From Chloroflexota bacterium (GTDB taxonomy: Bacteria; Chloroflexota; Dehalococcoidia; Tepidiformales; Tepidiformaceae): DNA of 64,000 nt. Below, piece after piece: positions 13,420 to 22,936 of the stretch. Location of the stretch: contig JAPPBY010000033.1 in assembly GCA_026702615.1 (NCBI GenBank), forward strand, positions 1 to 64,000, in the 5' to 3' direction. The translations under genes were made by a program, and so were the position numbers. Below the pieces are notes generated by a model. It saw nothing but the letters and a program-made list of their open reading frames with translations. It had not been told where the DNA came from and made no database searches. Position 1 is the first letter of the stretch. Every line of letters starts with the position of its first letter.

Positions 13420-16400
13420 GTGACTTTCTTTGAGCAAACATCGCGCCGCCTGAACCTGCGAGGGGAGGGCGAACTCACGTGGCGCAAGCCGCAACTGGGT
13501 GCGATAGGTGCGCTGCTCCAGTCATTCTCCCTCGATGATGAAGAGCCACCACTAATCTCGATTCCGACGGGTACAGGAAAGACTGCGGTCGCGATGATCG
13601 CTCCTCTTCTTTTGTCGCCATCGCCCAGGCGCGTGTTGATTGTTGAACCCTCGGTTGAGTTGCGGCATCAGATAGCGGATGAGGTCGAAGGACAGGGCGT
13701 GCTGAGAGCGCTCGGGTGCATACCGACAGATGCAGACAGACCTTCCGTGTTGGAACTGAAGGGACGCGTGAAGCGTTGGAGCGACGTTGCTGATGCCGAC
13801 TTCGTCGTGGCGCACCCCAAGTCGATCAGCCCGCTCCACTACGAGGCATCACCGCCGCCCACTGATCTCTTCGACCTCGTGATCGTGGACGAAGCCCACC
13901 ACCTCGGCGCACCGACGTGGCAAGCGATTCTCGATTACTTCAAGGGAGCCCGAGCAATCCTCCTGACGGCAACGCCGTTCCGGCGTGACAAGAAGAGGAT
14001 TCCCGGCCGGATCGCATATCACTACCCGTTGCGCAACGCGATATCGGAGGGAATCTACAACCCAGTGCTGCCCGACCTTCTGCCAGTCAAGACCGGCGAA
14101 GCGAGAGCATCAGTCGACGCACGCATCGCTGCGCGCGCCGCCGAGCGCTTGACCAGCACTGAACACGAGACCAGCACGATGCTCATTCGGGGTAGTACCG
14201 TCGAGCGAGCCAACGAACTCGCAGAGCTTTATCTGGATTCTGGAATCCGCGCTGAGGTCCTCCACAGTCGCCTTGGCGAGAAGCGAAGAGCCGGGATCAT
14301 TGAGCGCATCCGTTCTGGTGAAACTCGCGCTGTCGCCGTTGTCGGGATGCTCGGCGAGGGATTCGACCTTCCCCGACTGCGCATCGCCGCCTATCACGAC
14401 AAGCACCGTTCGACTCAATCAACCATCCAACTGATCGGACGGCTTGCGCGTACGCATCCAGGCTTCCCGCAGCAGTCAGTTCTTGTGACGGCACAGGATG
14501 CGGACGTATACCCGGAACTACGTGATGTTGTCCGGAGGCTGTATGCGGAGGATGCCGACTGGGCAAGAGTCTTGCCTGGGTTGATCGATGATGAGGTTGC
14601 TCGGAGGGAAGCCGATCAGGCGTATGTCGACCGGTTCACCGAGTCGCGAGGAGCAATCGACCCGACGCTGCTGACACCGCTGAACCGTGGCGCGATTTTC
14701 GAGATGTCGCCTGAGTGGATGCCTGACTTCCAAGCCCATGGAATAGAGACAGGGCAGGTCATCGGCGGGGCCACCGTGATCTACGCCGGAGTCAATGAGG
14801 ACAACACCACGCTGGTCGTGTCCACGAGGACGAATGCGCAGCCACGCTGGTCTAAGGATGCCGGGCTCCAGAATGTCGATTACGGGCTAACGGTCATCAG
14901 CTACCGCTCGCCCCCTCAGGTCGGGATGGCGACGCTGCTGGTGGAGAACTCCGACTCGCCAAGGGTCCTAGCGCGACTCAGGGAGCGTCTGGGCATCGAC
15001 GAGTTCGCCAGCCAGATCGATCCAGAAGTTGTCTCTCAGTATCTGGATGGCCTCGAGCGCACGTCGATCTCATCGGTAGGTCTCAGAGCGGAGGCGAGTT
15101 ACCGCAACCTGATGGGTCGGAACGTCGCTGCCCGTCTGCGGGCCTCGGACATGGCCCAGGCAGGTCTTGGTCACGTGATGCTGCAGACGTCAGGCGAGGA
15201 TGGTCGCTCGATCACGGTCGGTGGCGCGACGGGGAAGGGCAAGGTCTGGACCACTCAGTACACGTCACTTCGAGTGCACGACGAGTGGGTGGACGATGTA
15301 ACGAATCGGATGTGGTTTGCGCGTGTTGGACCGTCCGGGCCGATTCTTCCAGGCGTGAGCCGCGGCACTCGACTCGTGGCGTGGCCCAACTCTCCGATCG
15401 TTTCGGTCGACTTCGCACCAGAGCTTCACTCGGGCGGATGGAGCTTTCACACAAATGGTGATGACCTGAACCTCGAGGATGTGGCCCTGGGGCTCGTCAC
15501 GAATGAGTGGCGACCGCCAGCTCCCGACGCCCCCGTGGAGATCCAAGCGTCGCTGAGCGGCGATGAGGAGAGCCCATTCTGGCGGGGAACGCTGCACATC
15601 AGCGGAGAAGTGCGGACTCTGAGCGGCACCGAGGTTCAAGTGCGGCGGGGATACCCGGATGAAGGGAGGGTGGACGAATTCCTACGGGCGAACCCACCCA
15701 GCATCCACTTCCTTGATGGGCGGCGCGTAGAGGGCCATGTCGTCTACGACAGCCGTGCGCGTCCAAGCGCGGAATCGCTCACGATCCTCCGGGACGAGGA
15801 ATGGGGAGGGATCGATATCAGCGCCGAGACCCGTACCACAGCACTGAGGCGCAACCGCGGAATGCGGTCGGTCCACGAGGCGGTCGAGCGCATGATTCTT
15901 GGCTCGCCGAAGCGGGGGCGGCGGCGATGGGTGATGTGCAACGATGGCAAAGGCGAACTGGCAGACTACGTGGTCGTCGAGGACCTGGGGCGGGGCGGCG
16001 TTGGGCTGGAGTTCTGGCACGCCAAAGCTGCTGGCGGTGAACCGGGCGTGCGTATCACAGATCTGCAAGTGGTGACGGCTCAGGCCCTAAGGAGCCGCAG
16101 GTTCCTTCCCAGGAGGCAACTCTGGGGGAAGCTTCACAAGAGACTCGACGGAAACGAGTTCCCTCACTTGGCCTTGGTCGAGGGGAGCGACCCCGAGTGT
16201 TTTCTGCGTGCCCGCCTTGGCTTCGACCACAGTCGGCATCCGGGTGGCTGGCGCCACTCATGGAGGGTACTTCAGCCCAAACCGGAGGCGAAGATCGTGA
16301 TGGTTCAACCAGGGCTGAGCAAGCAAGGGATCATTGATCAGGCTGCCAGCACCAGCTCGCCTTCGAACAGAGCGAATGACGCCCTCAGCCTCCTCGACGT

Positions 16401-16458
16401 GTTCCAGGACTTCGCGGTAGCCGAAGGGTGGACTGCTGAGGTCGTCTGCTCGCTGTGA
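13420..16458 (+). CDS. Superfamily 2 helicase with nuclease-like C-terminus
   Basis: The protein has 1012 residues from a GTG start. The helicase core has Walker A IPTGTGKT (48-55), DEAHH (157-161), LLTATPF (motif III region) and IGRLART (motif VI), so it is a complete SF2 DEAD/DEAH helicase of the type III-restriction/UvrB-like group. The middle region (about 400-780) has no motif I know. The C-terminal region has a run of acidic residues followed by EFWHAKAA, an E-x-K-like arrangement reminiscent of PD-(D/E)xK nucleases fused to helicases in defence loci. It stands alone on its strand, surrounded by defence genes. Unwinding and cutting of foreign DNA is an inference. Confidence 0.8.
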   Translation: MTFFEQTSRRLNLRGEGELTWRKPQLGAIGALLQSFSLDDEEPPLISIPTGTGKTAVAMIAPLLLSPSPRRVLIVEPSVELRHQIADEVEGQGVLRALGCIPTDADRPSVLELKGRVKRWSDVADADFVVAHPKSISPLHYEASPPPTDLFDLVIVDEAHHLGAPTWQAILDYFKGARAILLTATPFRRDKKRIPGRIAYHYPLRNAISEGIYNPVLPDLLPVKTGEARASVDARIAARAAERLTSTEHETSTMLIRGSTVERANELAELYLDSGIRAEVLHSRLGEKRRAGIIERIRSGETRAVAVVGMLGEGFDLPRLRIAAYHDKHRSTQSTIQLIGRLARTHPGFPQQSVLVTAQDADVYPELRDVVRRLYAEDADWARVLPGLIDDEVARREADQAYVDRFTESRGAIDPTLLTPLNRGAIFEMSPEWMPDFQAHGIETGQVIGGATVIYAGVNEDNTTLVVSTRTNAQPRWSKDAGLQNVDYGLTVISYRSPPQVGMATLLVENSDSPRVLARLRERLGIDEFASQIDPEVVSQYLDGLERTSISSVGLRAEASYRNLMGRNVAARLRASDMAQAGLGHVMLQTSGEDGRSITVGGATGKGKVWTTQYTSLRVHDEWVDDVTNRMWFARVGPSGPILPGVSRGTRLVAWPNSPIVSVDFAPELHSGGWSFHTNGDDLNLEDVALGLVTNEWRPPAPDAPVEIQASLSGDEESPFWRGTLHISGEVRTLSGTEVQVRRGYPDEGRVDEFLRANPPSIHFLDGRRVEGHVVYDSRARPSAESLTILRDEEWGGIDISAETRTTALRRNRGMRSVHEAVERMILGSPKRGRRRWVMCNDGKGELADYVVVEDLGRGGVGLEFWHAKAAGGEPGVRITDLQVVTAQALRSRRFLPRRQLWGKLHKRLDGNEFPHLALVEGSDPECFLRARLGFDHSRHPGGWRHSWRVLQPKPEAKIVMVQPGLSKQGIIDQAASTSSPSNRANDALSLLDVFQDFAVAEGWTAEVVCSL

Positions 16459-16978: not shown

Positions 16979-17281
16979 ATGACGACGGACTCCCGGCCAC
17001 TCGCCATGCTCATCGAGGGCGACAACGCGCAGCCGTCCCTGCTCGCGCACGTGCTGGCCGAGGCGGCCAGGTACGGGACGGTGACGACGCGCCGCATCTA
17101 CGGCGATTGGACGACTCCGCAGATGTCGAGCTGGAAGGAGTCGCTTCACTCCCTCGCCGTGCAGCCGCAACAGCACTCGCGCGCCCCTGGAGGGAGGCGC
17201 CTGGGTAGCAAGGGTGCGACCGTAGGCCGAGGCGACTCGTTGCACCCCTCCAGCTTGTCTGCGGCTTTCGGGGCGGTGTAG
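16979..17281 (+). pseudogene. NYN-domain protein, truncated after about 65 residues
   Basis: The first ~64 residues, including LAMLIEGDNAQPS and WTTPQMSSWKESLHSLAV, are the start of a LabA/NYN PIN-like nuclease. The family normally continues for another 100 or more residues that include further acidic catalytic positions. Here the match stops abruptly after VQPQQ near 17170 and the frame continues into low-complexity Arg/Gly/Ser sequence. The gene is best read as cut by a deletion or rearrangement. It retains its own promoter-like TACACT. A short functional product cannot be excluded, but it would lack much of the active site. Confidence 0.65.
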
Positions 17282-17338
17282 GCCCCTTGTATCGCGGCGC
17301 TCGGCTCGCCGGCGACTCCCGAGGACGGAAGATGGTGG

Positions 17339-17713
17339 GTGGCTAGGCTCAACGTCTTCGTCAGCTTCGAGTTCGACAAGGACGAGAACCTCAGGGGGAG
17401 CTTCTACGCACAAGCGAAGCGCCAGACGCGGCATCGCATACGGGACTACTCGCTCAGTGAGGCCTACAAGGCCCCGGAGTGGAAGGCGAAGGCGAAGGCC
17501 GCCATTCGCCGGTGTGATGCCGTGGTCGTCCTCATCGGCGAGGACACGCACAATGCTCCCGGGGTCAGGACGGAAGTGGACATCGCTCAGAGCCTCGGCA
17601 AGCCGATTCTCCAGGTAAGGCCGCAGAGGCGGAGCTACCCCGGCCTGCATTGGCTCGACGACCCCATCCCTTGGAAGTGGGAGCGCATCGAGGACTGGCT
17701 GGACGAGCTATGA
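17339..17713 (+). CDS. TIR-like (MTH538/DUF1863-type) protein
   Basis: The protein has 124 residues, starting at GTG 17339. NVFVSFEFDKDENLR (5-19) is the first strand and loop of a TIR-like fold. RRCDAVVVLIGEDT (57-70) is the central strand, and GVRTEVDIAQSLGKP (75-89) carries Glu79 at the place of the catalytic glutamate of NADase TIR domains. The length equals one domain. The stop overlaps the start of the next gene by 4 bp, so the two are translated together. It probably makes or cleaves an NAD-derived product when triggered; which of the two cannot be decided from sequence. Confidence 0.78.
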   Translation: MARLNVFVSFEFDKDENLRGSFYAQAKRQTRHRIRDYSLSEAYKAPEWKAKAKAAIRRCDAVVVLIGEDTHNAPGVRTEVDIAQSLGKPILQVRPQRRSYPGLHWLDDPIPWKWERIEDWLDEL

Positions 17714-18126
17714 ACCGGGAAGCGGCACGCGTTGAGCACCTTAAGCTGATTCAGGGGGTCGTGGACCGGCTGAGCCGGAACTCCTTCGCCGTCAAGTCGG
17801 TGGCGACGGCGGCGACGGCGGCGCTGGTGGCGTTCACGGCCGGCACCGAGTCACCCGTGGCTGCCCTTGCCGGTGTGACGGTACTCCCCTTGTGGGTGCT
17901 CGATGCCCTCTTCCTCGATCGCGAGCGTGGCTTTCGCCGGCTCTACGACAGTGTGCGGCAGTGCGAGCCCGTAGAGCACGGGCACAGCGCCTACTTCAAG
18001 ATGGAGGTTCCCTCAGCAGGACACCGCTACAGCCTCCTGAGAGCTGCCGCAAGCGCGAGCCTGTCCCTGTTCTACGCCTCTCTCCTCGCGCTGGTTGGGG
18101 CATCGGCACTCGTCACGCTGGTCTAG
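17710..18126 (+). CDS. Small membrane protein paired with the TIR-like gene
   Basis: The protein has 138 residues and starts by ATGA overlap with the TIR-like gene. The N-terminal helix VEHLKLIQGVVDRLSRNSFA (8-27) is a recurrent signature of small proteins that accompany TIR-like genes. Hydrophobic segments follow at about 28-45, 48-68 and 112-136, with a basic/acidic loop RERGFRRLYD between. It probably has three or four membrane helices. By analogy with other two-gene defence units it may be the membrane-disrupting effector activated by the TIR product. That is an inference; no family number is claimed. Confidence 0.7.
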   Translation: MNREAARVEHLKLIQGVVDRLSRNSFAVKSVATAATAALVAFTAGTESPVAALAGVTVLPLWVLDALFLDRERGFRRLYDSVRQCEPVEHGHSAYFKMEVPSAGHRYSLLRAAASASLSLFYASLLALVGASALVTLV

Positions 18127-18149
18127 AGCCCCGGCACGCCGGGGTGCAC

Positions 18150-18713
18150 CTAGCGTATCCCCAGGAGCCGCGAGAGCCAGCTCCGGCCCGCGGCCTCGCG
18201 ACGGGCCCTCCGGCGCTCTTCGGCCTCCCCGACGGCGTCCTCGACCCAGCCCTCGATGTTGTTGGCAATGCGACGGTAGGCGCGCTGGCTGTCCTTCGCT
18301 CGGGGATCGTGGACCTTCACATGGTCCGAGAGTCGTACACCGTCCACCTCGACATCGAACGGATTCCTGCCCTTGCGGGACTGCTTCCCGTCCCTGTCCA
18401 GCAGGTTGTGGATGTAGATGCCGACCAGCCCCTTGCCCTCGACCCAGGCCTGCTCGATCTCGTACCGGACCCACTCGCGGTCGGCCGTCTCGCTGCCGAC
18501 CAGCACGACGACGCACGAGCCACGGGCGATTCGCGCGTCGATCCACGCGCTGATGGCAGCCTTCCCGCGGCGCTTGACCTCCTCCCAGGCGTTGGCGCTG
18601 ACCGGCTTGCTTCCCTGGATCGCGCCGATGTTGCGCACCTGTGATGTGCGCCAGTTGTCGCGGTCGTAGTGGAAGCTGAAGAAGACCCGTCGCCGGGGAG
18701 TCTTGGCTGGCAT
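18150..18713 (-). CDS. ThsB-like TIR-domain protein, last gene of the Ubl operon
   Basis: The protein has 187 residues. RRRVFFSFHYDRDNWR (7-22), VSANAWEEV (38-46) and SCVVVLVGSETADREWVRYE (66-85) match the TIR-like proteins of the ThsB group; Glu85 in RYEIEQAW is the expected catalytic glutamate. GLVGIYIHNLLDRDG follows, also typical. The C-terminal ~35 residues are a charged helix. The ATG lies 6 bp after the DUF6527 stop, with a good Shine-Dalgarno overlapping that stop (GGAGG), so it belongs to the same transcript as the multiubiquitin and E1 genes. ThsB enzymes convert NAD to a cyclic ADP-ribose-type signal; here the product and receiver are unknown. Confidence 0.85.
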   Translation of the reverse strand: MPAKTPRRRVFFSFHYDRDNWRTSQVRNIGAIQGSKPVSANAWEEVKRRGKAAISAWIDARIARGSCVVVLVGSETADREWVRYEIEQAWVEGKGLVGIYIHNLLDRDGKQSRKGRNPFDVEVDGVRLSDHVKVHDPRAKDSQRAYRRIANNIEGWVEDAVGEAEERRRARREAAGRSWLSRLLGIR

Positions 18714-18719
18714 GCTCCT

Positions 18720-19076
18720 TTACCTCCAGGGGATTCGGAGTCGGCACTGAGCGACCCGCCGCCAGAGAGGCAAGCGCCGCGCAGGCTTGGCCTCCGCGAA
18801 GGAAGGCAACCAGATCACCTTGTTGCGCCGGATGTAGTAGTGCGACTGGCACTCGAAACTCCTGTTGCCTACCGATGGGCAGAGGGAGATCGACTCACCG
18901 TCAAAGGTCATGCTCCAGTCGTTTCGGCTGAGCGGTGTGACGACCTCGCGGCCGCATCCGCAGCAACAGCTGTGCAGGGCCGTCGTGAAGGCGACGGAGA
19001 CGTACAGCACCCCATCGGCAAGGTGTTCCGGGATGTGATGGACGAACTCGTGATCGAGCGCCGTCCTACGGCTCAT
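18720..19076 (-). CDS. DUF6527 protein (Cys-rich, bacterial ubiquitin-like cassettes)
   Basis: The protein has 118 residues. The ATG at 19076 overlaps the stop of the E1 gene (ATGA). Features: DHEFVHHIPEHLADGVLYVS, then the Cys cluster HSCCCGCG (36-42), SLCPSVGN (65-71) and CQSHYYIRRNKVIW (76-89). This spacing is that of DUF6527, a putative metal-binding protein found beside bacterial E1/ThiF and ubiquitin-like genes. The C-terminal 20 residues are basic. It may be a zinc-binding partner or protease of the conjugation system; the biochemical role is not established. Confidence 0.82.
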   Translation of the reverse strand: MSRRTALDHEFVHHIPEHLADGVLYVSVAFTTALHSCCCGCGREVVTPLSRNDWSMTFDGESISLCPSVGNRSFECQSHYYIRRNKVIWLPSFAEAKPARRLPLWRRVAQCRLRIPWR

Positions 19077-20245
19077 GGCTGGCGCTCGTTGACCAGGTGG
19101 TTGCCGTCGATCTGGTAGCAACTGGAGTGCTCCCCGCCCAGATCCAGGTAGAAATCCATGAGCTTCTTCCACTTGACGACGGCGAGGGCGGCGTTCAGAG
19201 CGTTGAGGTCTGCAATCTGGATGTTCTGCGCATAGTCGTCGTCCGCGGGTCGGTCCGCGAGTGGGATCGTCGAGTGAACGTGGTCGTGGTCGCCCGGCGT
19301 CACAGACGTCACTCGCAACTGTCCGAGCAAAGCCCCGTCAACCTCGTTGACACCCATCCCTACATCGACGAACGGCACACCGGCGTCGAGCAGCGTCTCG
19401 ACAGCCAGTAGCCTGGCAGCAGCGTCATCCACGGCGACGAAGGCGAAGTCCATCGAGGACAGGACGTCAGCCGCGCCGCGTTCGAGGTAGTCATGGCTGA
19501 CGATGTTGCGATGCATGTTGGAATAGATGTCGCGGAAGTAGTCGGACTTCCTGGGTCGTGCTCTGAGGTCGTCAACCGACGGCGCGCCGGGAGCCCGGAA
19601 GGCGTTGTGCTGGCCGAAGGTGTCGCCGTCGAACAGGTGGATCGCACCGACCGGCGTCTTCGCTACGAGATCGAGGATGTACGAGCCGGTGCCGCCGAGC
19701 CCAACGATTGCCACCGCGCTGAGCCGGAGCTTCTCCGTGATCGCGCCGATCTCGGCCCTGCTCGAGGCCGTATCAACGTACTCGAACACCGAGCTTGTGT
19801 TCTCCTCGGGGGCTACCAGGAACGTTCGAGCGGTGGCCGCGGGGTCGATCGCCTGCGCGTAGCCGGACAGGATCTCCGCGTACGTCGACATCTTCTCGTA
19901 GTAGTCCGCGTAGCCACCTTCCGGCTTGCTCGAGAACTTGTGCTGAGCGATCAGGCCGTCGCCCAAGTCCCACGAACCGGCAGAGTTGATGATGTTGCTG
20001 AGAGGCGTCCCCTCGCTGTTGCAGGGTGCGCTCCCGGTGAACATCACGACATGATTGCTCGGGCGGGCGGCGACATCCCCTGCGAGGTCAAGTTCCGAGA
20101 CCAGCGAAGCGCGCGCGACGACGCGATCCTCGGTGACGTATGGGACTTGCTTCAGTAGGAGGTAGCCCCCGCGCACCTCGATCTCATAGCCCTCGTCCGC
20201 GAGCCGCTGGAGATCGGGGCTACGACCTATCAGTTGCGGTGGCAT
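19073..20245 (-). CDS. E1-like ThiF adenylyltransferase with N-terminal DUF6791-type domain
   Basis: The protein has 390 residues. The N-terminal ~160 residues include HVVMFTGSAPC and GSWDLGDGLIAQHKFSSKP, matching the domain that precedes ThiF in multiubiquitin operons (DUF6791). The ThiF domain starts at about 170: VAIVGLGGTGSYI (178-190) is the nucleotide-binding loop, and LFDGDTFGQHNAFR (204-217) supplies the acidic and Arg/Asn residues used to adenylate a ubiquitin-like C-terminus. A Cys near the end (HSSCYQ) could carry the thioester. It should activate the Ubl encoded just upstream. The genes overlap at both ends (26 bp with the Ubl gene, 4 bp with DUF6527). No separate E2 gene is present. 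Confidence 0.9.
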   Translation of the reverse strand: MPPQLIGRSPDLQRLADEGYEIEVRGGYLLLKQVPYVTEDRVVARASLVSELDLAGDVAARPSNHVVMFTGSAPCNSEGTPLSNIINSAGSWDLGDGLIAQHKFSSKPEGGYADYYEKMSTYAEILSGYAQAIDPAATARTFLVAPEENTSSVFEYVDTASSRAEIGAITEKLRLSAVAIVGLGGTGSYILDLVAKTPVGAIHLFDGDTFGQHNAFRAPGAPSVDDLRARPRKSDYFRDIYSNMHRNIVSHDYLERGAADVLSSMDFAFVAVDDAAARLLAVETLLDAGVPFVDVGMGVNEVDGALLGQLRVTSVTPGDHDHVHSTIPLADRPADDDYAQNIQIADLNALNAALAVVKWKKLMDFYLDLGGEHSSCYQIDGNHLVNERQP

Positions 20246-20528
20246 TGAAGACGGTGCCGTCCTTGACCTTCACTTCACCGCCGGGGCGGAGGCTGCCATC
20301 GGGCGGGCGGCCGGCGCCGTCGCGGTAGGTGACGGTGAACTCCCAGTTCGGACCCGAGGGCACCGGGCTGAGGGCGAGCTCGAGCACCTCCTTGAAGGAG
20401 ATCTCCTCGGACATGACGATCCGCTCGCGGCCGTTCACGATGATGGCTATTCTGTCCTTGTCGTCGGACCCGTCCTTGTCGTCGAGCTTGTCCTTGTCGT
20501 CAGGCACGGGGCCCTCCTCTTGAACCAT
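20220..20528 (-). CDS. Multiubiquitin-domain (Ubl) protein
   Basis: The protein has 102 residues from the ATG at 20528. A charged Asp/Lys-rich leader (about 9-25) precedes one ubiquitin-like beta-grasp domain: RIAIIVNGRERIV, then EEISFKEVLELAL, and NWEFTVTYRDG to the C-terminal strand. This is the pattern of the multiubiquitin family, here with a single copy. The tail ends TATDRS, not Gly-Gly, so any conjugation chemistry would use a different terminus or need trimming. It is the first gene of the operon and faces the HTH regulator gene across a 107-bp divergent promoter region. Confidence 0.82.
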   Translation of the reverse strand: MVQEEGPVPDDKDKLDDKDGSDDKDRIAIIVNGRERIVMSEEISFKEVLELALSPVPSGPNWEFTVTYRDGAGRPPDGSLRPGGEVKVKDGTVFNATATDRS

Positions 20529-20540
20529 ACTTTGAGATGT

Positions 20541-20614
20541 GTACCGTCTCCGGTACAGGACCACGCTAGCGCACGGCCCTCGCTTGTGTCAAACTGCGGT
20601 GGTGCGGCGTACCG
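20541..20614. promoter_or_regulatory. Palindromic operator and promoter between the Ubl operon and the HTH gene
   Basis: A perfect 16-bp dyad, GTACCGTCTCCGGTAC, spans 20541-20556. The half-site GTACCG recurs at 20609-20614. On the minus strand TTGACA (about 20588-20593) followed after 18 bp by TAGCGT gives a promoter for the Ubl operon, with the dyad just downstream of the expected transcription start. Binding by the neighbouring XRE protein would repress both directions. The sites are seen directly; the binding protein is inferred from position. Confidence 0.55.
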
Positions 20615-20635
20615 TTTTACGCACAGGGAGCGTGC

Positions 20636-21106
20636 GTGGCTGACGGCAGCCTCGATCTCAGCGAATTGGGTCGGCTCTTCGCGGCGGAGCGAAGTCGCCG
20701 CGGGATGAGCCTTCGCGAAGCCTCCGATGACGTCGGGATTCCATTCAACACCCTTGCCCGGGTTGAGAAGGGGCACGTCCCGGACCTGCCGAAGTTCAAG
20801 CGGCTCGTCGAGTGGTGCGGAGCCGACATGGCCCAGTTCTTCGAGCCGCAGGCGAAGGCCACGGTCACGACCGACGTGATAGCGGAGCATCTTCACTCGG
20901 ATCGCAGTCTTTCGCCCGAGGCGGCGGACCGCATCGCGGCGATCGTGAACGAGCTCTACGAAGCCCTGGCACGCCCGGAGAGGGTATCCGCGGTGCACCT
21001 GAGGGCAGCGAAGACGTTCAGGCCCGACGCGGCCCACGCCCTCGGGGAACTAGTCGACGATCTGCACCAGGCGCTCTTGAGAGAGTCGCGAGATGGCCCT
21101 TCGTAG
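20636..21106 (+). CDS. XRE-family HTH regulator, CapH-like
   Basis: The protein has 156 residues, starting at GTG 20636 with AGGGAG upstream. The HTH is SELGRLFAAERSRRGMSLRE followed by DVGIPFNTLARVEKG (about 9-46), a standard XRE fold. The rest is helical. The stop region overlaps the ImmA/IrrE gene by 14 bp. HTH plus metallopeptidase pairs such as CapH/CapP control CBASS defence operons, where the peptidase destroys the repressor after DNA damage. The same logic is likely here for the divergent ubiquitin-like operon; this is an inference from arrangement. Confidence 0.85.
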   Translation: MADGSLDLSELGRLFAAERSRRGMSLREASDDVGIPFNTLARVEKGHVPDLPKFKRLVEWCGADMAQFFEPQAKATVTTDVIAEHLHSDRSLSPEAADRIAAIVNELYEALARPERVSAVHLRAAKTFRPDAAHALGELVDDLHQALLRESRDGPS

Positions 21107-21671
21107 GGGCTTCAAGTCGGAAGCGGAGAGGATTGCAGCGCGCCTGAGAGAAGACCTCGGGGTGGGGGCGGCGCAGTCGGTCACGCCCGACAACCTAGCG
21201 GAACTCCTGGGTGTCGAGATCCGATCAGGGGATGACCTGATTCCGCGTAGTCGATTCGTTGCTCTCGACGAACTGCAACCCGATGCCTTCTCAGCCTGTA
21301 CCTTCCGCCCTTCACCCGATCGCGTGGTGATCGTGTTCAACCCCCTGTCCGCGCCATCGCGCCGAACGAGCGACCTCGCGCACGAATTCGCCCACATCCT
21401 GCTCGACCACGACTTGAGCCGAATCGAGACGCTCGGCGACATCACCTTCCTCTCCTGTGATCCGATTCAGGAGGAAGAGGCAGCGTGGCTCTCCGGGTGT
21501 CTCATCCTTCCTCGGCCGCTTCTCCTAGCAGCGGTCCGCCGAGGGGCGACCGCGAGCGATATCGCGAAGCGCCACGGTGTCAGCGAAACTATGGCGCGGT
21601 ACCGCCTGAACGTCACCGGGGTGGCGAGGCAACACGCGGCACGCAGGAAGGGAAGGGCCTCCGCAGGGTAG
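21093..21671 (+). CDS. ImmA/IrrE-family metallopeptidase, CapP-like
   Basis: The protein has 192 residues. The zinc site HEFAHILLDH carries His97, Glu98 and His101, and a second acidic patch QEEEAAWLSGCLILP (about 127-141) supplies the third ligand region typical of ImmA/IrrE. The C-terminal helix segment DIAKRHGVSETMARYRLN resembles an HTH and is common in this family. It overlaps the XRE gene, so the pair is one unit. Expected role: cleave the XRE repressor when triggered and so release the Ubl-E1-DUF6527-TIR operon. Confidence 0.88.
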   Translation: MALRRGFKSEAERIAARLREDLGVGAAQSVTPDNLAELLGVEIRSGDDLIPRSRFVALDELQPDAFSACTFRPSPDRVVIVFNPLSAPSRRTSDLAHEFAHILLDHDLSRIETLGDITFLSCDPIQEEEAAWLSGCLILPRPLLLAAVRRGATASDIAKRHGVSETMARYRLNVTGVARQHAARRKGRASAG

Positions 21672-21902
21672 GTGGCACACCCTACGCGCGGGCCGGCACG
21701 TGTGGAGTACAGGCGAGCCGGGAATCTACAGGTGCTGCGCACCCACGTCATGCGGCTGCACCGCAGGCTGGGCGGCGTCGCCCAGCCGCGCCCACAACAT
21801 CCTCATGAAGTATTGCGTTGGCTGCCGCATGGCGGAGGGCGAGGCGGCCCCGGCCGCTGTCGAGGCGGTACGATAGGAGGGGTCGCGCCGGGAGGATCAG
21901 CC

Positions 21903-22175
21903 ATGACCACGACTGTAAAGGCCACGTACGCCAACGGCGTGTTCACGCCTCAAGAACCCGTCGACCTCGAGGAGGGCGCGGAGGTCATGGTCTCGATGGA
22001 CGGCACGCCGCCTGAGTCGTCGGGGACGATGGAGGAAGATGGAGCCTCCATCCTGCACCTCATCGAGGAGCTGCACGCGTCCGCGCTCGTCGGCGAGCCG
22101 GATGACCGGCCCGCTGACCTCGCCGAGCACTACAAGCACTACCTGTATGGCCACCCCAAGGACGAAGCTTCGTGA
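21903..22175 (+). CDS. AF2212-like (DUF104) antitoxin
   Basis: The protein has 90 residues with a strong GGAGGATCAGCC before the ATG. The N-terminal strand-rich part TVKATYANGVFTPQEPVDLE is diagnostic of AF2212/DUF104 antitoxins, which bind and block PIN toxins. The C-terminal half is helical and acidic and would wrap the toxin. A TACGAT at 21869-21874 is a likely -10 element. The stop overlaps the toxin start (GTGA), as expected for a toxin-antitoxin operon. Confidence 0.85.
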   Translation: MTTTVKATYANGVFTPQEPVDLEEGAEVMVSMDGTPPESSGTMEEDGASILHLIEELHASALVGEPDDRPADLAEHYKHYLYGHPKDEAS

Positions 22176-22591
22176 GCGAGGTCTTCGCCGACACCGGGTA
22201 CTGGGCCGCGCTGCAGGACAGTCGGGACAGGCTGCACGAGAGGGCACTTGCTCTGACACGCGGGCTTGAATCTCGCCGCATCGTGACGACCCAGATGGTG
22301 CTGGCCGAGGTACTCAACATGTTCGGGAGCCGAGGGGAACGGCAGCGGCGCCTGGCCGGCGAGGTTGTCGAGCGAGCGGAGCGCAGTCTCGATGTCGAGA
22401 TCGTGCCGCAGACGGACGCGCAGTTCCGCGCAGCCTTGGAGCGCTACACCGAGCGGCCGGACCAGACGTGGAGTCTCACGGATTGCGCCAGCTTCATCAT
22501 CATGGAGGAGCGCGGCATCACCGATGCCCTCGCCCACGACCGCGACTTCGAGCAGGCTGGCTTTACCGCCCTGCTCCGGCAAGGCGATTGA
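22172..22591 (+). CDS. PIN-domain toxin (VapC-like RNase)
   Basis: The protein has 139 residues with a GTG start overlapping the antitoxin stop. The PIN active-site residues are in place: Asp7 in FADTGY, Glu46 in VLAEVLN, Asp104 in SLTDCASF and Asp123/Asp125 in AHDRDF. The expected activity is Mg-dependent cleavage of RNA, often tRNA or rRNA, held in check by the upstream protein. It lies between the ImmA/IrrE gene and thyX in the island. Confidence 0.9.
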   Translation: MSEVFADTGYWAALQDSRDRLHERALALTRGLESRRIVTTQMVLAEVLNMFGSRGERQRRLAGEVVERAERSLDVEIVPQTDAQFRAALERYTERPDQTWSLTDCASFIIMEERGITDALAHDRDFEQAGFTALLRQGD

Positions 22592-22936
22592 ATACACTCC
22601 ACGCGGATCGACCCAACCCGAACCGGACGGTTCGGACCGCGCGACATCGGGGGTCGGGCTACATCTTTCCATCCCCGGGCTGCCAGCTTGACACTCGTGC
22701 CGTTCCGTAACGGGCGGCCCGAGGATGCTCACGAACTACTGGACGAAGCCCGGGGAATCGGCAACTCGCTCGTCCCGACGACCCCCCGCATCTCCCCGGC
22801 AGGGGTGGAAGCGTGACCGCGGTGGGGCGGGGCCTCGCAGCGGTGTAACTCGCTCACGGGTAGCGGGCCTGGCCGCAGGCCAGCCCATCGACGAGGTGTA
22901 GGATACGGCGGTGGTTCGAACCCCGAACCGCGATGC
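22592..22936. other. Intergenic stretch with a hairpin and a mini-ORF before thyX
   Basis: A 6-bp GC hairpin (GGCCTG at 22866-22871, CAGGCC at 22876-22881, GCCG loop) lies about 70 bp before thyX. TAGGAT at 22899-22904 lies 6 nt before a GTG at 22911. That GTG opens a 9-codon frame whose TGA (22938-22940) overlaps the GTG start of thyX. The small dyad GGTTCGAACCCCGAACC makes this look like a tRNA T-arm, but no tRNA body is present. Confidence 0.35.

Follow-up and report, generated by a model that had tools for sequence, protein, structure and literature searches.

Gene arrangement and predicted operators

The window examined here, a stretch of 64,000 nucleotides from a Chloroflexota bacterium (contig JAPPBY010000033.1), contains two plus-strand genes, coding for an XRE repressor and an M78 (ImmA/IrrE) metallopeptidase, that are divergent from a minus-strand operon for a ubiquitin-like (Ubl) protein. 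The XRE gene (20636-21106) encodes a protein of 156 amino acids (aa) with a Pfam HTH_31 match (E = 2.2e-7), a helix-turn-helix (HTH) region modelled at a pLDDT above 80, and the recognition helix IPFNTLARVEKGH. The peptidase gene (21093-21671) overlaps it, as the initial annotation had pointed out; the overlap measures 14 bp. The 192-aa product of the peptidase gene carries HEFAH and EEEA motifs (Pfam Peptidase_M78, 7.5e-17) and no GAF-like domain. On the opposite strand lie the genes for the Ubl protein (20220-20507; Multi_ubiq, PF14452, E = 3.7e-16), an E1-like DUF6791-ThiF protein (19073-20245; DUF6791 1e-57, ThiF 2e-12), and a DUF6527 protein (18720-19076; 5.4e-24), each of which overlaps its neighbour, by 4 nt in the case of E1 and DUF6527. 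A TIR protein gene (18150-18713; ThsB_TIR, 5.2e-26; ThsB and PDC-M50B profile matches) starts 6 nt past the DUF6527 stop and has its own ribosome site. Because a sequence scan revealed no promoter or terminator match between the four minus-strand genes, the simplest reading is that they constitute a single Ubl-E1-DUF6527-TIR operon, with TIR as its probable fourth gene.

The gap between the Ubl operon and the XRE gene spans 128 bp, taking GTG 20507 as the Ubl start, and not the 107 bp given at first. The shorter distance would require an ATG at 20528, which was rejected because a 1-nt deletion between the ATG and the GTG in a sister species (L005, contig VXPF01000013.1) would break the frame, and the GTG has its own ribosome site. 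Within the gap, we found the perfect dyad that had been noted before, GTACC-N6-GGTAC (GTACCGTCTCCGGTAC, 20541-20556; TGTACCG-TCTC-CGGTACA with its flanks, 20540-20557), which is referred to as predicted operator O1. The repeated half-site was also recovered; it belongs to a degenerate second predicted operator, O2, GTACC-N6-CGCAC (GTACCGTTTTACGCAC, 20609-20624), located directly upstream of the XRE start. The two copies are 68 bp apart, and 14 of 20 positions are identical over 20608-20627. For the Ubl operon, we predicted a −35 box, TTGACA (20587-20592, minus strand), and, after an 18-bp spacer, a −10 box of the TAnnnT type, TAGCGT (20563-20568, minus strand), and O1 would cover about +1 to +16 of this promoter. 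The −35 box is kept in the sister species and at loci L086 and L132 and reads TTGACG at L078, and homologues have TATCCT, TAGACT, or TACGAT at −10. A consensus scan of the intergenic region with TATAAT rules yielded no match, and the promoter call is based on conservation.

The window has no other perfect 16-mer of the O1 type. Since the perfect 18-mer occurs only once in the 2.87-Mb genome, the next best match having two mismatches, the pair looks like a local switch rather than the head of a regulon. Taken alone, the dyad is marginal versus chance, with shuffling giving P values of about 0.03-0.17. Of 300 shuffles of the region, 52 contained a perfect dyad with 7-bp arms and a spacer of any length from 0 to 14, and a perfect 5-N6-5 dyad with an extra half-site appeared in 58/2000. 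It is conservation that makes the dyad convincing.

Conservation of the predicted operator and covariation with the recognition helix

The initial annotation had staked its proposal on conservation of the dyad in related loci, and the dyad proved to be kept both in the sister species and in three further genera. Both sites are unchanged in the sister species, and the remainder of the gap has slightly drifted. The three other genera, whose XRE proteins have the same recognition helix, carry the operator at −98 to −103. At L086 (G309), where the same Ubl-E1-DUF6527 operon faces an XRE-M78 pair, GTACC-N6-GGTAC is present at −103 and GTACC-N6-TGTAC at −36; L078 (G088) has GTACC-N6-GATAC at −98 and GTATC-N6-GACAC at −36; and L097 and L132 (G552) have GTACC-N6-GGTAC at −103, the L097 case coming to light once the rule had been fixed. 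L016 likewise has a second site at −36, and the XRE proteins of L086 and L078 retain the helix IPFNTLARVE(K/R)GH. In all GTACC loci, the operator begins 0-9 nt past the −10 box of a TTGAC(A/G)-17/18-TAnnnT promoter of the Ubl/E1 operon.

Perfect inverted repeats of 5 bp were counted for each spacer from 0 to 16, with shuffled controls, in 55 non-redundant XRE loci (31 plus 24 hold-out). A spacer of 6 ranked top in the 31 loci, with 22 repeats seen versus 6.0 expected (0/200 shuffles), and the 24 new hold-out loci gave 22 versus 5.05 expected (0/300 shuffles), so that N6 inverted repeats are about four-fold enriched over the 55 loci. Spacers 4 and 2 rise too in the hold-out set, at least partly from long arms that extend inward.

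The half-sites differ by subfamily along with the recognition helix: ATTGC and GTTGC go with VSASTLTR-type helices, GTCTT and GTCTC with several (I/V)S(A/P)xTLSR-type helices, and GTACC with IPFNTLAR. The helix VSASTLTRMAQGK would be expected to read ATTGC, and that of the window XRE GTACC. Helix distance correlated with half-site distance (r = 0.45, 0/5000 permutations, n = 34), including among 22 diverged proteins (r = 0.35, 10/5000 permutations); in these figures a fixed rule chose a single perfect site at each locus and took a different, probably irrelevant dyad for L078 (L024), and the related loci share ancestry that permutation removes only in part. This covariation is the strongest evidence that XRE itself would read the dyad. 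A non-exhaustive search of partial literature retrieved no published description of such an operator rule. The operator appears to be readable from the DNA and predictable from the recognition helix.

A putative repressor-protease switch and its trigger

We consider it highly probable that the XRE-M78 pair is a dedicated repressor-protease switch acting on the Ubl-E1-DUF6527-TIR operon, and the earlier proposal of a local switch, with the dyad as the operator in a shared divergent control region, is supported by the comparisons described above. An XRE dimer would bind the 16-bp operators, each with a pair of 5-bp half-sites in inverted orientation, separated by 6 bp. Bound at O1, over the operon transcription start, it would block initiation and hold the operon off, and at O2, at the XRE promoter, it would limit synthesis of the repressor and the co-transcribed peptidase. 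Once activated, the M78 peptidase would cut XRE, both promoters would open, and the conjugation/TIR system would be made. Gene order, the predicted operators, their position relative to the predicted promoters, conservation, and helix covariation are read directly from the sequence, and we infer repression, cleavage, and induction at the window locus from relatives. The C-terminal motif of XRE is duplicated in tandem (aa 80-147; window 20873-21078), and the second copy, present in the XREs of the window, the sister species, L086, and L078 and absent from most other family members, may provide a second dimerisation or cleavage module.

Several points weigh against such a switch. O2 is degenerate, and a clear N6 dyad was not found at several homologous loci (e.g., L098, L053, and L090). 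The promoter boxes are of a form assumed for this phylum and were read by eye. Furthermore, the structure model of the XRE C-terminal part is of too low a quality (pTM 0.44) for its fold to be compared.

The peptidase has the hallmarks of its family, as the residues of HExxH and the downstream ExEA (third-ligand Glu) are invariant over 11 homologues, and the predicted fold (mean pLDDT 76) matched IrrE, PprI, and CapP (7t5t) in Foldseek. However, the model stops after the HTH, and the C-terminal sensor domain of full-length CapP is absent: the match to the capP profile covers only positions 6-150 of 242 (145 positions), compared with 6-241 and 16-241 for the full-length control proteins of L016 and L067. 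The window XRE matched the capH profile weakly (E = 0.027); of 13 homologues, 4 reached 0.01 or lower. Other bacteria have genuine CapH/CapP proteins beside this type of Ubl operon. The operon faces a peptidase of ~303 aa in Maricaulis (L016), Sulfitobacter THAF37 (L067), and Pacificitalea (L068, assigned by annotation and length). At L016 and L067, the peptidase is a full CapP (E = 2.5e-63 and 2.1e-66 against the capP profile; for L016, 2e-55 against 7t5t in phmmer), and the L067 repressor is of the capH type (8.5e-33). Since these pairs match the profiles strongly, the difference between the window pair and CapH/CapP is genuine rather than an artefact of the profiles.

The comparison with CapH/CapP drawn in the initial annotation thus holds for the switch logic, namely an XRE repressor and an M78 peptidase by a defence operon, a related peptidase fold, and an operator at the operon promoter, but not for membership, given the weak capH and partial capP matches. 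In other words, the window pair appears to work like CapH/CapP but lacks one defining CapP feature. ImmR/ImmA of ICEBs1 and ImmRA of TnSmu1 also combine XRE and ImmA/IrrE in one operon, with repressor removal by cleavage and induction by DNA damage (PMC10233336), but they control mobile-element excision and not a conjugation/TIR operon; their sequence relation to the window pair was compared by profile hits only. DdrO/PprI (IrrE) of Deinococcus shares the peptidase fold, the motif, and the repressor-cleavage logic, whereas PprI has a GAF-like sensor of single-stranded DNA (ssDNA) and DdrO controls a repair regulon.

A true CapH/CapP-type DNA-damage switch, in which ssDNA binds the peptidase and the peptidase cuts the repressor, would fit the peptidase fold and zinc motif related to CapP, the genuine CapH/CapP proteins facing the same operon type, and the invariance among homologues of peptidase R90, which lies at the place of the ssDNA-contacting R85 of PprI. 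We nevertheless regard it as unlikely. PprI truncated at the same point, without its GAF-like domain, retains cleavage activity but has lost both ssDNA binding and the response to ssDNA (PMC10904395), and the window peptidase, having no GAF-like sensor, is unlikely to sense ssDNA directly in the way PprI does. Control of the window operon by DNA damage, as first claimed, is not supported as written. By analogy, RecA-dependent activation, as reported for the ICEBs1 peptidase ImmA, seems more likely, as does some other cue related to phage. We tentatively suggest that a widespread XRE-M78 class of defence switches may have lost the ssDNA-sensing domain and respond to some trigger that is not bare ssDNA. 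Candidates would include RecA filaments, a protein from the phage, and something that the defence system itself makes (e.g., a Ubl modification or a TIR-made nucleotide).

A toxin-antitoxin pair that keeps the cassette stable, the role proposed for Synechocystis slr6056-slr6057 (PMC4963859), would agree with the small adjacent genes, their 14-bp overlap, and the apparent mobility of the cassette. This explanation is improbable, since the operator also sits on the neighbouring operon start in several genera, which a self-regulated toxin-antitoxin pair does not need, and the similar immRA pair of S. mutans was not toxin-antitoxin-like when tested (PMC10233336). It is very improbable that the dyad forms a hairpin in the Ubl leader mRNA, or arose by chance, and is not a repressor site: similar dyads arise in 3-17% of shuffles and the dyad lies at the predicted mRNA 5′ end, but the spacer enrichment with its hold-out, the helix/half-site covariation, and the second copy at the XRE promoter all argue against it.

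Distribution of the probable switch and its genomic setting

A 2016 study reported XRE-DUF955 pairs beside multiubiquitin genes, for 70% of PF14452 proteins, and interpreted the pairs as toxin-antitoxin (PMC4963859). In 2026, 219 of 544 Bub operons were described with CapW or CapH plus CapP, with Cap given the broader meaning "controller of associated/adjacent pathways" (PMC13373217). The novelty of the switch is limited, as such pairs by bacterial Ubl operons have been published (PMC4963859, PMC13373217). The gene arrangement is already known, and the additions made here are an operator code, a peptidase without a GAF-like domain, and a TIR gene as the fourth of the operon. A close counterpart is slr6056 (XRE)-slr6057 (COG2856/DUF955) on Synechocystis pSYSX, with a homologous XRE (tblastn 6e-7) and a short M78 protein in the same divergent placement by a Multi_ubiq operon (PMC4963859). 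The window shares this arrangement and has a 5-N6-5 operator upstream of XRE, whereas the pSYSX cassette has a separate E2, another E1 type, the half-site ATTGC in place of GTACC, and no TIR gene.

The XRE-M78 family is divergent from Ubl-E2-E1 operons in cyanobacteria, alphaproteobacteria, and Chloroflexota and also from Ubl-E1-DUF6527 operons. Its other partners include a TIR gene with DUF2188, a SMODS/CD-NTase gene (L134), and pPIWI-RE islands (L137 and L138), and one pair lies upstream of a type I restriction-modification system (L017). No close XRE relative was found in the viral contigs and phage records searched. A ClpP-type protease gene follows the XRE-controlled Ubl-E1 operon on rhizobial plasmids (L125, L126, and L130), which suggests targeted degradation.

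Among the 11 other E1 loci of the genome scan (sister excluded), a related XRE-peptidase pair was present at one, that of Maricaulis, with its full-length CapP. At an Adhaeribacter locus (L069, 4349-4446), a WYL-domain gene faces the same Ubl-E1-DUF6527 operon across a palindrome with 16-bp arms. Because short XRE-M78 pairs, full CapH/CapP, and a WYL protein face the same operon type, at least three interchangeable regulators appear to serve it, and the window carries the GAF-less one. At L014 (3743-5576), L010, and L011, another divergent set of genes upstream of Ubl-E1-DUF6527 includes M78-like genes of ~280 aa, which possibly represent a further regulator type.

Between the window and the sister species, the cassette (17147-22605) shows 92.75% identity, and the adjoining sequence is unmatched; on this ground, the switch appears to travel together with the operon in a mobile cassette. 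With thyX as a flank marker, no neighbouring empty site was found. An AF2212-like/PIN pair (VapBC-like, 21906-22591) marks the right edge of the shared cassette, and in the sister species, an extra DUF6527 end and TIR fragment (L005, 3386-3645) beyond the PIN gene matches window 18504-18775 at 88%. The large helicase-like protein encoded left of the cassette (13420-16458) may belong to a defence island. Convergent to the operon TIR gene, which has a PDC-M50B match and may serve two systems, are another ThsB-like TIR gene and a membrane-type PDC-M50A gene (17339-18126).

Taken together, this analysis addresses the wider question of how bacteria hold dangerous defence systems off until they are needed. 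Since the operator would be predictable from the recognition helix, direct tests become possible for the switch family on ubiquitin-like, CD-NTase, pPIWI-RE, TIR, and restriction operons. With the sensor domain missing, the trigger becomes a concrete question, for which full CapH/CapP pairs on the same operon type would serve as a natural control.
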